Source: a bacterium (lineage in GTDB: Bacteria > Patescibacteriota > Saccharimonadia > Saccharimonadales > SZUA-47). From it: a stretch of DNA of 52,530 nucleotides. How positions within the stretch are numbered: the first letter of the stretch is position 1; each line of letters opens with the position of its first letter. The position numbers and the translations under genes were made by a program. Below the pieces are notes generated by a model that worked only from the letters and a program-made list of their open reading frames with translations, was not told the origin of the DNA and searched no databases. The stretch spans positions 1-52,530 of the forward strand of contig JAUHXF010000006.1 in NCBI GenBank assembly GCA_030427125.1, in the 5' to 3' direction. This document shows positions 27,183 to 32,210 of the stretch, in pieces.

Positions 27183-28844
27183 TTACATTTGTTCGGGTGC
27201 GTGAATGCCGAGCAATGCGAGTCCGTCTTTTAGTGTGTTGGCATAACTATCGACGAGGTATAGACGTACTGCTTCTCGCTCATCACCAATAACCTTACTG
27301 TTTTCGTAAAAGCGGTTAAAGGTCTGAGCCAACTCATACAGATAGGTGCAGATGTGATGTGGTGCAAGCTCAGTGGTCGCAACATCAATGGTCTCTGCAA
27401 ATTGACCAAGCTTTCGTACAAGTGCGTGCTCGCCGTCAGAAATATCCTGTGGCTGCTGATGTTCTGTATCGCTTTTACGCAAAATGCTTCGTGCTCTGGC
27501 ATGTGCATACTGTAGATACGGACCACTGTTTCCCTCAGTAGCGATAGACTCTTTCGGATCATAGATGATATCTCCACCAACCCGATTCTTAATCAGCGCG
27601 TACTTCACTGCTGCCAGCATGACTTCTTCGTTGTCGGCCTGCCCCGACTCTTTGCCTGCCTCGCGCGCTGCCTGCAAAATATCAAAGGCGGAGAGAATGT
27701 TGCCTTTGCGTGAGCTCATCTTTACACCCCCCGCAAGTTTCACAACGCCATGCGTCAGATGCTTTGTAGTCTGTGCAGCTTCAGGCTCAAACTGTTCGAT
27801 CGCCTTCATGACGACTTCCATATACTGTTTTTGTTCGGTCGCCGTGATGATAATTGACTGGTCGGCGCGATAGTCATTCCACTTTGTCAAGCTTAGTCCG
27901 ACGTCTTTGGCCTCATAAGTCGGGAGGCCTTCGTTATTGATGAACACACGGGTGTGCAGCCCAAAGTCTTCGCCCTTGAATACAATTGCTCCATCGCTCT
28001 CACTGAATACTTGAGGTGTATGGGTCTTTACAGCTTCTAATCCTGGCTGAGACACTTCACTCTCTGGGATGAAACGATCAAAGGCATGAACCTGCAAATC
28101 CTCGTATAACTTTTTAAAAAAGTCATAACTTTTATCACGTAGATACCAATATATTTGTGCAAAGGCAGAGTCGTGGTCATTGTCAGTATGCAGTTGATAC
28201 ACACGTTTGTTCACTGCCTTTATGTCAGCCTGTATAGCCTCATCATCGTCATAGGCGTTATTGCCCTCAACATATCGTTGCCCCATCCACTCACCAAGCG
28301 AATCAACTGGTAGACTCTTCACTTTTTCGACATCTTCGCCACCAAGTTCTTGCAGAACCGCCCACATAGTCTTGCCAACATGCATACCGACGTCGCCACC
28401 AAAGTTCAAACGAATCGTCTCCGCCCCCGCCGACTCAACCAGCCGTGCCATGACATCACCAACTAATGTTGTGTAGAGGTGGCCGGCATGGAGAGGCTTG
28501 AACGGGTTTGGATCTGAATATTCTACGAGGTATTTTTTTCCTAAAAGATTATTACTCGGCTTACTAGATAACCCGGACAATAGAGCGTCATCGGTCAACG
28601 TCATATTTATGAACCCTGGTCCTGCAACAGAAACAGACTTAACCTCATCTAGAGATTGCAAATTTTTTGCAATTTGATCCGCTATCTCTCGAGGGTTCTT
28701 TTGCAGTTTCCCTGCCAACTGCATAGCGACATTAGTTGCAAAATCACCAAACTGTTCTTCTGGCCGCTCTAGCTCTACAGTAATATCAGCATCGAATAGT
28801 TCTTTACAGACTCCCTGCACCGCCTCTTGAATACTTTGCTTCAT
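27183..28844 (-). CDS. argS: Arginyl-tRNA synthetase
   Basis: A 553-aa class I enzyme that charges tRNA-Arg. The N-terminal Add-1 domain is followed by the HIGH-type motif FKPLHAGHLYTT, the core segment LTHGVVKLAGGVKMSSRKGN with the MSSRKG signature, and the anticodon-binding DALR domain to the end. I favour ATG 28844 over ATG 28865, which overlaps argG, because TATAAT ends 9 nt before 28844 and family members start near it. It lies in the arg operon behind the attenuator, so it is likely co-controlled by arginine. Confidence 0.93.
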   Translation of the reverse strand: MKQSIQEAVQGVCKELFDADITVELERPEEQFGDFATNVAMQLAGKLQKNPREIADQIAKNLQSLDEVKSVSVAGPGFINMTLTDDALLSGLSSKPSNNLLGKKYLVEYSDPNPFKPLHAGHLYTTLVGDVMARLVESAGAETIRLNFGGDVGMHVGKTMWAVLQELGGEDVEKVKSLPVDSLGEWMGQRYVEGNNAYDDDEAIQADIKAVNKRVYQLHTDNDHDSAFAQIYWYLRDKSYDFFKKLYEDLQVHAFDRFIPESEVSQPGLEAVKTHTPQVFSESDGAIVFKGEDFGLHTRVFINNEGLPTYEAKDVGLSLTKWNDYRADQSIIITATEQKQYMEVVMKAIEQFEPEAAQTTKHLTHGVVKLAGGVKMSSRKGNILSAFDILQAAREAGKESGQADNEEVMLAAVKYALIKNRVGGDIIYDPKESIATEGNSGPYLQYAHARARSILRKSDTEHQQPQDISDGEHALVRKLGQFAETIDVATTELAPHHICTYLYELAQTFNRFYENSKVIGDEREAVRLYLVDSYANTLKDGLALLGIHAPEQM

Positions 28845-28854
28845 TACTGGTGCA

Positions 28855-30105
28855 TTATACGCCATTTTTCTTGGCGTATGCTGTCCTTTGAGCTAACGAA
28901 TAGAATTCTATGTATCCAGGGGCTGCATTTTGATTAAAGGTTATATCTTTATTAAAGCTAGCCTGTCGTATATCTAGAAGTGAGTTTTCTGACTTCAATG
29001 AAACTACATCCACATTACCTTTATGTAGTCTAACCGTGACATCACCGGACACTTTGTTGCTTTGCGCATCAATATAGGCGTTGAGATTCTGCATTAGCGG
29101 TTCATACCATTGTGCACCATAGACTAGTTCAGACCATTTTTGATCAATGATAGTTTTCATGTAGTTTTCTTCTTTTGTACTCACAAGCATTTCTAGTTTT
29201 TTATGTGCAGCAATTAAAATCGCTGCTGCTGGGTTCTCGTAAACTCCTCTGACCTTCATTCCAATAAGTCTGTCCTCTATTAGTTGTATGACACCAACTC
29301 CGTGCTTGGCTCCAACTTTATTTAGCTTTTTGATTATGTCTACTGTGTCCAGCTTCTCGCCGTCGAGCTTTATCGGTATGCCTTTTTCAAATGAGATTGT
29401 GACTTTCTCCGAGTCTTCTGGGCTGCTCTCAATCGTATTGCACCACTGTAGAATATCCTTCAGAGCAGGAACCTCAGCTGGGTTCTCAATAGCTCCACCC
29501 TCAGCAGTGTTGCCCCACAAATTTTCGTCGTAGCTATATGGACTAACAACTGTCTGCTTGACTGGAATACCGTGAAGCTCCGCGTACTCAAGCTCTTCAT
29601 TTCTACCCATAGACCATTCTCTTACTGGAGCAATTATTTTAATTTTTGAGTCCAGTACCGGAATGTACGTTTCAAATCGTACTTGATCATTGCCTTTTCC
29701 AGTTGCACCGTGAGCAATGACGTTGATGCTGTATTCCTGTGCAACTTTAACTGCAATCTCACTGATAACAACCCTTCCAAGAGGTGTACTAAGCGCATAT
29801 CCTCCTTGGTAGTCAGCGTTCGCTTTTATTGCCTTCGTCAGTACTTTCGATGCAAACTCGTGAGTTGCATCGTACACAATCGCCTCTTTAGCACCAAGCT
29901 TTAGTGCCTTTTGCTTTATCTCCTGTAAATTATCCGACCTTTGGCCAATATCTAGTGTTAACGTTACGACTTCACAATCATATTTTTCTTGAATCCACTT
30001 CAACATAACACTTGTGTCCAGTCCGCCAGAGTACAGCAGCAGACATATATCAAATTCACCCTTCTTTGCTTCGTGAGTAGCTGTTTTTACGTATGACTTG
30101 CTCAT
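28855..30105 (-). CDS. argG: Argininosuccinate synthase
   Basis: A 416-aa enzyme joining citrulline and aspartate with ATP to make argininosuccinate. The ATP-binding P-loop LLYSGGLDTSVML is at about residues 23-35, and HGATGKGNDQVRFE and NLWGNTAEGGAIENP are present as in the family. It overlaps argH by 4 bases (ATGA), which implies translational coupling. The second citrulline-to-arginine enzyme is encoded just upstream. No earlier arginine-pathway gene is in this window. Confidence 0.96.
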   Translation of the reverse strand: MSKSYVKTATHEAKKGEFDICLLLYSGGLDTSVMLKWIQEKYDCEVVTLTLDIGQRSDNLQEIKQKALKLGAKEAIVYDATHEFASKVLTKAIKANADYQGGYALSTPLGRVVISEIAVKVAQEYSINVIAHGATGKGNDQVRFETYIPVLDSKIKIIAPVREWSMGRNEELEYAELHGIPVKQTVVSPYSYDENLWGNTAEGGAIENPAEVPALKDILQWCNTIESSPEDSEKVTISFEKGIPIKLDGEKLDTVDIIKKLNKVGAKHGVGVIQLIEDRLIGMKVRGVYENPAAAILIAAHKKLEMLVSTKEENYMKTIIDQKWSELVYGAQWYEPLMQNLNAYIDAQSNKVSGDVTVRLHKGNVDVVSLKSENSLLDIRQASFNKDITFNQNAAPGYIEFYSLAQRTAYAKKNGV

Positions 30106-31298
30106 TTTTGACCCTCCAAACCTTGCTTTACTTCAATGTACGCATCTCTAAAGCTCATACCGCTTAGCACCTTGTCGTTGACCTGGTGCGTAACAAATAA
30201 ATCATCTGTCATTGCGCCTTTAATTTTTTTAGAATCAACTTTAAGATTTTTTACAAGCAACTCCCAAGTTGTAAGCGTATCTTTGACAAGTTCTATTGCT
30301 TCAATAAATGGTTGTTTTGTTAGCTGCAAGTCTCTTTGGTATCCAGTTGTTCTCTTTGAGATAAGGCCATGAATTTGTTCAATCTTAGACCAATACACAG
30401 CTTCGTTTGCTCTCATAATCTCGCACACATCTAGATTGTTCTTCTGTGGCATGATTGACGAGCCTGTCGTGAATGTTTTTGGTAAGCTGAAAAACCCTGT
30501 TTCTTGCATAGAAAACAACAGAACATCATTCGCCCAATGACTCGCGAACATCATGATTGGATGTAGCTGCTGCAGTACGTATAGCTCGTAAAATCCTCTG
30601 GTCGATGCTGCATACACTGGATTTTGTTGCATGGATTTAAAGTTCAATAGGTACGACGTTAAAGCGATGTCCGGCTGAATGGATTGGTGTGCAAAACCAT
30701 ATCCTGCTCCAGAGCCTAATGGATTTGAGTCAATCATTTTCCCAAGCTCGTGTTGTATTGGGCTGATTTCTTTTAATCCTTCTTTAAACTGCCCGATCCA
30801 ATCTACGAACATCATTGGCATTGCCTTTTGATGATGTGTATAGCCAGGTAATTGTAGGTTTTTATGTTTGTTTTGTTTGTTGTTGATAGTTTTTATTAAA
30901 CTATTTTTCTGCTCCATCACAATATGTAGCTGCTCTTTCATGAAAAGCCTCAGCATTACCAGCGATTGGTCATTCCTACTTCTGAGAAAATGCATCTTTT
31001 TACCAAGTTCTGGATTTTTTTCTGTGACAAATAACTCGATATAGCTATGGCCATCTTCAATCTTAGGATTAATAGCAAAGGATTCATTTTCTACTTGTTT
31101 TTGCAAAAGTTGTAAGTGATTTTTTAACTCGTTTGACTCTTCTTTTGTGAGCACTTCAATCGCATATAGCATGTGAACATGTGCGATAGTTGCTGTGATA
31201 TCGTGGCCAATTAGTTTTGCATCGACAAGATAGTCTTTACCAACGGTATATTTGTGAATTTGTGGTGACACACTGTAGTCGCCCCATATTTTTTTCAT
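30102..31298 (-). CDS. argH: Argininosuccinate lyase
   Basis: A 398-aa enzyme splitting argininosuccinate to arginine and fumarate. The signature GSSIMPQKNN lies near residue 273; HFLRSRNDQ and LPGYTHHQKAMP carry the substrate-binding residues. It is about 60 residues shorter than typical ArgH (near 460 aa), mostly at the C-terminus. GGAG lies 8 nt before the ATG and directly follows the attenuator T run, so translation depends on readthrough of that terminator. First gene of the arg operon. Confidence 0.94.
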   Translation of the reverse strand: MKKIWGDYSVSPQIHKYTVGKDYLVDAKLIGHDITATIAHVHMLYAIEVLTKEESNELKNHLQLLQKQVENESFAINPKIEDGHSYIELFVTEKNPELGKKMHFLRSRNDQSLVMLRLFMKEQLHIVMEQKNSLIKTINNKQNKHKNLQLPGYTHHQKAMPMMFVDWIGQFKEGLKEISPIQHELGKMIDSNPLGSGAGYGFAHQSIQPDIALTSYLLNFKSMQQNPVYAASTRGFYELYVLQQLHPIMMFASHWANDVLLFSMQETGFFSLPKTFTTGSSIMPQKNNLDVCEIMRANEAVYWSKIEQIHGLISKRTTGYQRDLQLTKQPFIEAIELVKDTLTTWELLVKNLKVDSKKIKGAMTDDLFVTHQVNDKVLSGMSFRDAYIEVKQGLEGQK

Positions 31299-31313
31299 AG
31301 TTGTTCTCCAAAT

Positions 31314-31339
31314 AAAAACGCCCCCTCGTGTGGGGAGCG
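31314..31339 (-). terminator. Attenuator terminator upstream of argH
   Basis: On the minus strand, CGCTCCC (31339-31333) pairs with GGGGGCG (31325-31319) around a short loop and is followed by TTTTT (31318-31314), then ATTT and the argH ribosome site. It lies between the leader peptide stop and argH, where a constitutive terminator would silence the operon. Confidence 0.88.
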
Positions 31340-31388
31340 ATGTGAAGGCGTCTATTAGAATTATTTAATCAATACGAGCACCGCTCCC
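31333..31388 (-). promoter_or_regulatory. Antiterminator pairing of the arg attenuator
   Basis: GGGAGCGGTG inside the leader ORF (31388-31379, codons 17-20) can pair with CATCGCTCCC (31342-31333) over 10 bp with a single G-U. The second partner contains the whole left arm of the terminator, so the two structures exclude each other. Within the leader, GAGC and GCTC (31385-31382, 31378-31375), or CCGC and GCGG, could form a small protector hairpin. Confidence 0.82.
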
Positions 31389-31436
31389 GTGAATACGTGA
31401 GCTGCGGCGGCCAGTAATATTGATTAATGCAATCAT
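31365..31436 (-). CDS. argL: Arginine leader peptide (attenuation)
   Basis: A 23-residue ORF beginning MIALINITGRRSSRI and ending ARID. Arg is at positions 10, 11, 14 and 21: four of 23 residues, with two adjacent CGC codons. A ribosome held at codons 10-11 would leave codons 17-20, the antiterminator arm, exposed; a ribosome reaching the stop would cover part of that arm and let the terminator fold. A TAATAT box (31442-31447) ends 5 nt before the ATG, so the leader peptide would be translated from the 5' end of the RNA. The symbol is descriptive. Confidence 0.82.
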   Translation of the reverse strand: MIALINITGRRSSRIHGSGARID

Positions 31437-31441
31437 AAGCT

Positions 31442-31472
31442 ATATTAAAACACTAAATTACTATTCATTCAA
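31442..31472 (-). promoter_or_regulatory. Promoter of the arg operon
   Basis: TTGAAT (31467-31472) and TAATAT (31442-31447) on the minus strand; the spacer is 17-19 nt depending on which -10 register is used. The -35 lies in the 3' end of the upstream hydrolase gene. No ArgR-type palindrome was seen, which fits control by attenuation alone. Confidence 0.55.
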
Positions 31473-32210
31473 GTATTTATTAAAGAACGACACAGTCACA
31501 GCGTTAACCTTCTTAAGCATTGCCTGGTCTTCTTTATAAAAATGATCTGTCTCAAACACCTCAAGTTGTTTTGGCTCGTTCGCAGTAAGAAAAATCTCCT
31601 CAACTGCAGACTGAGGCACAAGCGAGTCAATTGTGCCAGCTATAAATAGTTGCGGAATTCGTAGGTTCTTTACTGTCTCTGCAGTGTTGTATTGCAATCT
31701 ATCCTCAAAAAAATCTGCTGGAAGCCAGACATCACCAAAGATTTGAGTTTTCATCATATAGCCACCGTCTTCTCGCCAAGAATTTGTTTGTGGTGCTTTC
31801 CCCGTTGATGGCTGACAACCACACAGTGCATGGAAAAGTTCCGGCCAACGCGCAACAACCTGGACTGCAACCATGCCGCCCATACTGTGACCCCATATGC
31901 CGACTTTATTAGTATCAAGATCTAGGTTCGTAACACACCATTCGTATACAGTTTTCACAGATTCAATATAGGTAGTTGCTCGATAATCATCTGCCCAGGT
32001 CCCAGCTGACTCGCCAGAGCCAGGAGCATCAAAACGAACGACTATATAGCCTTCATCAACAAGTAGTTCGGCAAGCGAATCAAGATGCTCTTCTTCTTTC
32101 CACCCAGTATTTCCGTGTAGCAATATGACAAGTGGATTTGGTCCTTCTGTATCAGGTTGCTCAATAATAGTCGCCAGCTTTAAATCATTGTGTAATACAC
32201 TTGTCACCAT
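31461..32210 (-). CDS. Alpha/beta hydrolase (serine esterase/peptidase type)
   Basis: A 249-aa hydrolase. The oxyanion region is LLHGNTGWKEEEH, the nucleophile elbow is GIWGHSMGGMVA (Ser near residue 105), the acid Asp is in FIAGTIDSLVP, and the His is in ETDHFY. It resembles the YjfP/BAAT group of small esterases. TAAAAT ends 6 nt before the ATG, so the message is probably leaderless. It ends just before the arg operon promoter. Confidence 0.88.
   Translation of the reverse strand: MVTSVLHNDLKLATIIEQPDTEGPNPLVILLHGNTGWKEEEHLDSLAELLVDEGYIVVRFDAPGSGESAGTWADDYRATTYIESVKTVYEWCVTNLDLDTNKVGIWGHSMGGMVAVQVVARWPELFHALCGCQPSTGKAPQTNSWREDGGYMMKTQIFGDVWLPADFFEDRLQYNTAETVKNLRIPQLFIAGTIDSLVPQSAVEEIFLTANEPKQLEVFETDHFYKEDQAMLKKVNAVTVSFFNKYLNE

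Follow-up and report, generated by a model that had tools for sequence, protein, structure and literature searches.

Leader-peptide attenuation is a textbook mechanism, and the question raised by the locus described here is whether a short open reading frame (ORF) in front of the arginine genes argH, argG, and argS of a probable saccharibacterium operates such a switch. We analyzed a 52,530-nucleotide stretch of genomic DNA (the window) and conclude that the locus very likely controls transcription by ribosome-mediated attenuation in response to the level of charged tRNA-Arg. Found at this site are an ORF rich in Arg codons that is conserved as a leader and in its choice of codons, an intrinsic terminator, an antiterminator that excludes the terminator and covaries, a spacing compatible with a translating ribosome (geometry assessed in silico), and cognate genes downstream. 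The locus is best read as a member of a known attenuator class for which the arginine specificity and the clade are new. Its features are as follows.

31467..31472, minus strand: possible -35 element TTGAAT, weak, with a 19-nt spacer to TAATAT
31442..31447, minus strand: possible -10 element TAATAT, 5 nt 5' of the leader ATG, with similar placement in most of 30 leaders
31365..31436, minus strand: leader ORF MIALINITGRRSSRIHGSGARID and stop codon, read directly; kept in relatives, with Arg codons varying synonymously
31417..31427, minus strand: outer arm of hairpin 1:2, TTAATCAATAT, which pairs with 31375-31365
31404..31409, minus strand: putative regulatory Arg-Arg codons 10-11 (CGC CGC), with 18 nt from the second Arg codon to strand 2
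31395..31403, minus strand: inner strand 1, AGCTCACGT, which pairs with ACGGGAGC
31379..31388, minus strand: strand 2, the left arm of the antiterminator, GGGAGCGGTG, codons 17-20
31333..31342, minus strand: strand 3, CATCGCTCCC, whose partner is strand 2 or, partly, strand 4
31319..31339, minus strand: terminator hairpin 3:4, from a hairpin call and covariation
31311..31318, minus strand: U-tract, read directly and from the terminator call
30102..31298, minus strand: argH, by Pfam/NCBIfam match, preceded by GGAG at 31309-31306
28855..30105, minus strand: argG, by Pfam/NCBIfam match
27183..28865, minus strand: argS, by Pfam/NCBIfam match

The initial annotation, which had proposed an attenuator from the letters of this locus, proved accurate on each of its structural elements. 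On the minus strand, the leader runs from an ATG at 31436 to a TAA at 31367-31365 and has 23 codons, with Arg at positions 10, 11, 14, and 21. Strands 2 and 3 (31388-31379 and 31342-31333) are complementary over 10 bp with one G-U pair. The hairpin at 31339-31319 and its U-tract form a terminator directly before argH (CGCTCCC-CACACGA-GGGGGCG-TTTTTATTT), and its 7 pairs compare with a mean of 0.3 in shuffled sequences. Taken alone, the energy of folding is not significant for this region (z of -1.3), as can be expected for an RNA with alternative folds. Pfam and NCBIfam matches confirm the order argH-argG-argS behind the leader; the ends of these genes overlap and all lie on the minus strand. 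The assignment of argH is the best NCBIfam match for its gene, although its score is below the cut-off (238.8 versus 279.5 bits).

As far as sequence can indicate, translation of the leader, stalling, termination, and the response to arginine would be linked in the following way. Transcription would start at the leader AUG or right next to it, with a ribosome trailing RNA polymerase through the 23 codons. With ample Arg-tRNA, the ribosome would pass codon 14 and reach the stop codon, where it would cover strand 2; strand 3 would then pair with strand 4 to form the terminator, and argH-argG-argS would be off. With scarce Arg-tRNA, the ribosome would wait at Arg codons 10-11 (or 14), leaving strand 2 free to pair with nascent strand 3. 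No terminator would form, and the three genes would be transcribed, with the predicted outcome that citrulline is converted to arginine and more arginyl-tRNA synthetase is made.

If the leader has such a role, it should recur in relatives. The initial annotation had suggested a search there for short Arg-rich ORFs and for compensatory changes in the pairing, and both were found, which supports its attenuator reading. The closest argH relatives carry homologous leaders at the equivalent position, both in front of argH-argG-argS operons (G005, MKKQFTFLSRRSSRISGSDARI; G010, MFNINYKFNSVRRTRIFESGACNI) and in front of operons where argG is ahead of argH (G007, MNSLSILQNRRSYRITGSCS; G055, MVHNYISQSSRRTRI; G040, MSKFTDNFEARRSSRIHGSWAFSC). 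In a further genome of the same genus (G001), argH lies at a contig end and the upstream sequence is missing. A covariance model built from six leaders and run on 393 genomes of the order gave matches in 32 genomes. After inspection, an Arg-Arg leader, an antiterminator strand, and a U-tailed terminator were found together at 25 loci in 23 genomes from approximately 10 families. One other match (L056) was judged to be due to chance. When 937 kb of the present genome was scanned for the full architecture, three matches were obtained, the strongest of which is this locus, and none was obtained in the reversed sequence.

The order sample includes 23 genomes that carry argG, seven of which have an Arg-Arg leader. 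In family f35, five argG genomes carry a diverged leader with RRR or RRRR (for example, MTTTHNVIRRRRSLAEG and MSYHQFADFRRRLRH) that is likewise accompanied by a terminator, and eight genomes with a longer type of argG, plus G285 and G002, lack such a leader. Outside the order, among more distant Patescibacteria, looser RRR leaders precede argH (L012 and L013) and argF (L088). The last of these was retained from a phylum-wide covariance model search together with a Phe leader (L080); most of the weak matches from that search were plain terminators after genes and were discarded.

Covariation provides evidence for both of the alternative helices. Because about half of the sequences have strand 3 out of register by 1 to 3 nt in alignments from MAFFT and the first covariance model, the register was fixed by anchoring strand 2 and then locating strand 3 in each sequence. 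Over distinct pairs, cognate strands 2 and 3 form a mean of 9.3 of 10 base pairs compared with 8.06 for permuted partners, a value that none of 20,000 permutations reached, where the choice of strand 3 for fit somewhat favors the cognate pairs and the permutations ignore kinship. Changes on both sides are present at seven of the 10 antiterminator pairs, such as pair 7 (G-C or U-A) and pair 10 (G-C, C-G, or U-A). The terminator helix 3:4 also covaries (6.63 of 7 pairs versus 4.49 when permuted; 0 of 20,000, kinship again ignored). At pair 2, G-C is replaced by A-U in G010 and strand 4 follows. A base in strand 3 that changes along with its partners in both strands 2 and 4 is the prediction made by an attenuator. 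Three leaders (L035, L043, and L045) fit an ungapped 10-bp antiterminator poorly.

The placement of the codons relative to these helices agrees with a ribosome-operated switch. Among the 25 leaders, the first and second codons of the RR pair are CGC in 17 and 14 cases, CGT in 6 and 6, and CGA in 2 and 5, such that Arg is kept. The first base of the second Arg codon lies 18 nt ahead of strand 2 in most of the leaders, and 14 to 21 nt ahead of it in all but one, so strand 2 starts just past a ribosome waiting at this codon. We then folded RNAs extending up to strand 3 with the ribosome footprint masked. Averaged over the 25 leaders, 8.2 of the 10 antiterminator pairs form with no ribosome, 9.2 to 9.4 form with a ribosome at the Arg codons, and 0.5 form with a ribosome at the stop codon, where it masks strand 2 in all 25. 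The difference between stalled and stop positions is present in every leader, and in 24 or 25 of them over five footprint sizes.

For the leader in the window, the corresponding values are 4.1 pairs when free, 9.7 when stalled, and 0.8 at the stop codon, with the switch falling between A-site codons 13 and 15. Arg codons 10, 11, and 14 fall within the permissive zone, and Arg 21 falls outside it. The long 1:2 hairpin would partly protect this leader from antitermination without translation, whereas the antiterminator of most relatives would also arise in untranslated RNA. A 1:2 hairpin that would give termination without translation is predicted for G010 and G055 and not for most relatives. 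At equilibrium, the terminator is favored in the full-length RNA even when codons 10-11 are occupied by a ribosome. Therefore, the choice must be kinetic and fall while the RNA is still being synthesized, which is also the case for known attenuators.

With the possible -10 element only 5 nt from the ATG, the predicted transcript start is at or next to the AUG. Using simple scoring, the best -10-like hexamer of 30 leaders lies a median of 7 nt 5' of the ATG, and none of the 30 has a Shine-Dalgarno-like sequence within 18 nt 5' of the ATG. A consensus promoter scan called no promoter in the window, and the candidate of this leader is weak by consensus. The -10 position and the absent Shine-Dalgarno sequence point to a leader mRNA that is probably leaderless, or close to it. 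A precedent is the trpL attenuator of Sinorhizobium meliloti, where the leader mRNA also starts at the ATG and attenuation is the sole control, although that system responds to tryptophan and belongs to the Alphaproteobacteria (PMC7298713).

The Arg RNA models also drew in Ile, Cys, Pro, Phe, and Trp leaders, which are of similar design with other codons. The Ile, Cys, Pro, and Phe leaders have runs of these codons and a terminator. Those for Ile (L051 and L057) precede threonine-ammonia-lyase-like (ilvA-like) genes, that for Cys (L046) a cysteine-synthase-like gene, that for Pro (L055) a proB-like gene, and that for Phe (L080) a gene for a prephenate dehydrogenase/dehydratase protein. That codons and pathways agree for four amino acids strongly supports the mechanism. 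When these sister leaders were folded with masking (L071, L067, and L048 excluded), the antiterminator was again blocked by a ribosome at the stop codon in the solved leaders. Specificities for Tyr (L052) and His (L047) are less certain. On balance, we favor the view that leaderless attenuators of one design, with exchangeable codons (Arg, Ile, Cys, Pro, Phe, Trp, and perhaps Tyr and His), serve as a general control of the few retained amino-acid genes in Saccharibacteria and other Patescibacteria, replacing ArgR and, largely, T-boxes.

Several other explanations for the locus need to be weighed against an arginine-sensing attenuator. The leader might sense a general slowdown of translation or an antibiotic, as an Arg-Leu-Arg motif has been noted in resistance leaders on which antibiotics stall ribosomes (PMC8632094) and leaders here have R-S-x-R or R-T-R. 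We judge this very improbable, since the genes downstream are arginine genes rather than resistance genes, relatives with the RNA design intact carry Ile, Cys, Pro, or Phe codons instead, ahead of matching genes, and the RRRR family (f35) keeps the peptide around RR poorly. Equally slight is the chance that a protein or small molecule binds the RNA and switches the terminator in the manner of a riboswitch, with the ORF being incidental. Strand 2 is indeed conserved as RNA within the ORF. However, an Rfam search of the leader region gave no match, the in-frame Arg codons vary synonymously, the stop codon of all 25 leaders sits where a ribosome on it would hide strand 2, and the sister leaders switch codons.

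Still less probable, to the point of being negligible, are two further possibilities. A gene at 31461-32210 is transcribed in the same direction and its end adjoins the leader, so the hairpin could be a constitutive terminator of the upstream transcript accompanied by a chance ORF; this conflicts with conservation of the arrangement in differing neighborhoods, with covariation in two exclusive helices, and with the lack of any such architecture in the reversed genome. The genes could instead be under the control of ArgR, which binds DNA, or of a T-box, which binds tRNA, as arginine genes of other bacteria usually are (arginine T-boxes are stated in PMC1262725), but neither was found here. The ArgR C-terminal domain is absent from all 61 relatives searched, compared with detection in 8 of 14 control genomes, and the T-box model (RF00230) has no match in this genome or in the region. 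Strain TM7x, a cultured saccharibacterium, reportedly has neither argR nor argG (PMC12815258). Weak T-box-like matches (26 to 40 bits, below the cut-off) occur in 10 of the 61 relatives (for example, L165, L166, and L167).

Leader-peptide attenuation has been described in Proteobacteria, Actinobacteria, and Firmicutes (PMC2965389). In a literature search of openly accessible journal papers, we found no report of attenuation in Saccharibacteria or other Patescibacteria, nor any attenuator of the trp type in front of arginine genes. The initial annotation had likewise remarked that no amino-acid attenuator of this type is known to have been described in a CPR bacterium. The trp, his, leu, and phe attenuators of Escherichia coli, Actinobacteria (PMC1262725), and Firmicutes (his; PMC2965389) share with this locus a leader peptide containing codons for the amino acid under control, strands 1 to 4, an intrinsic terminator, and cognate biosynthetic or aminoacyl-tRNA synthetase genes. 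The present leader differs from them in its Arg codons, its probably leaderless mRNA, its phylum, and the absence of a strong 1:2 protector in most relatives.

Two known leaders also sense arginine. The orf34 leader of Salmonella speF is a short ORF with consecutive Arg codons (12 and 13), where pausing of the ribosome serves to detect low arginine (PMC6386406). However, it controls ornithine decarboxylase through Rho-dependent termination and RNase G, has a Shine-Dalgarno sequence, and no intrinsic terminator was found for it, whereas here an intrinsic terminator is present and argH lies downstream. The Arg codons of the Staphylococcus aureus rbfL leader likewise sense arginine shortage (PMC13009471, 2026), but control is translational: a ribosome that pauses there occludes the rbf binding site, and low arginine represses rather than induces.

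Genomes in this group of bacteria are approximately 1 Mb in size; predicted attenuators, including those with Arg specificity, are seen throughout. Neither ornithine carbamoyltransferase (OTCase) nor arginine deiminase (ADI) was found in this genome, which is about 90% complete. A 16S primer sequence for TM7 has no exact match in it either; the 16S gene may be missing from the genome or deviate from the primer at one position. With argG and argH present and OTCase, ADI, and ArgR not found, the switch would report the supply of arginine from the host or surroundings, and citrulline salvage would be switched on just when it is needed.

The leaders also offer a clue for annotation, as genes of unassigned function that follow an Arg, Trp, or Tyr leader probably act in the pathway of that amino acid. 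The genes behind the 25 Arg leaders include argH, argG, argS, and argB-like, AstE-like, GNAT, and racemase-like genes, and some are of no known family. At four loci (L032, L033, L043, and L053), argS lies behind an acetyltransferase-like or unassigned gene. An argB-like kinase gene is followed by argS at L042 and is itself preceded at L036 by an ORF that was not family-scanned, while at L030 an acetyltransferase-like gene is followed by an AstE/AspA-like gene. Six Arg leaders (L027, L030, L035, L036, L038, and L039) precede genes for proteins of about 165 to 200 aa, mostly GNAT acetyltransferase-like, some of which precede argB-like or AstE-like genes. These GNAT-like proteins may take part in an acetyl cycle within a pared-down pathway for arginine.

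At five loci, an Arg leader is located directly or one gene ahead of an Asp/Glu/hydantoin-racemase-like gene, assigned by scan for L029 and by resemblance for L031, L034, L044, and L054. Judging from this arrangement, the racemase family is probably tied to arginine metabolism. Besides its Arg leader, the present genome has one credible leader among the three scan matches, a Tyr-Tyr leader on contig C18. This leader (L116 of G000, minus strand, ATG at about 10177; MKVTKTQFWYYEKTLSWRYC) has a terminator and is followed by a 198-aa Asp/Glu-racemase-like gene. The Trp leaders L048 to L050 (GAWRSSYYSWEYI, GAWWNSRYAWECS, and a similar one) precede genes for a protein of about 275 aa without a Pfam match and a luciferase-like protein. 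L047 keeps the Arg-type RNA core (GGCS before the stop codon and a 10-bp antiterminator) with HHNNH in place of RR, and a gene for a 465-aa protein without a Pfam match follows. Finally, in another family of the phylum, a short ORF and terminator (L077) lie directly 5' of a RelA/SpoT gene.
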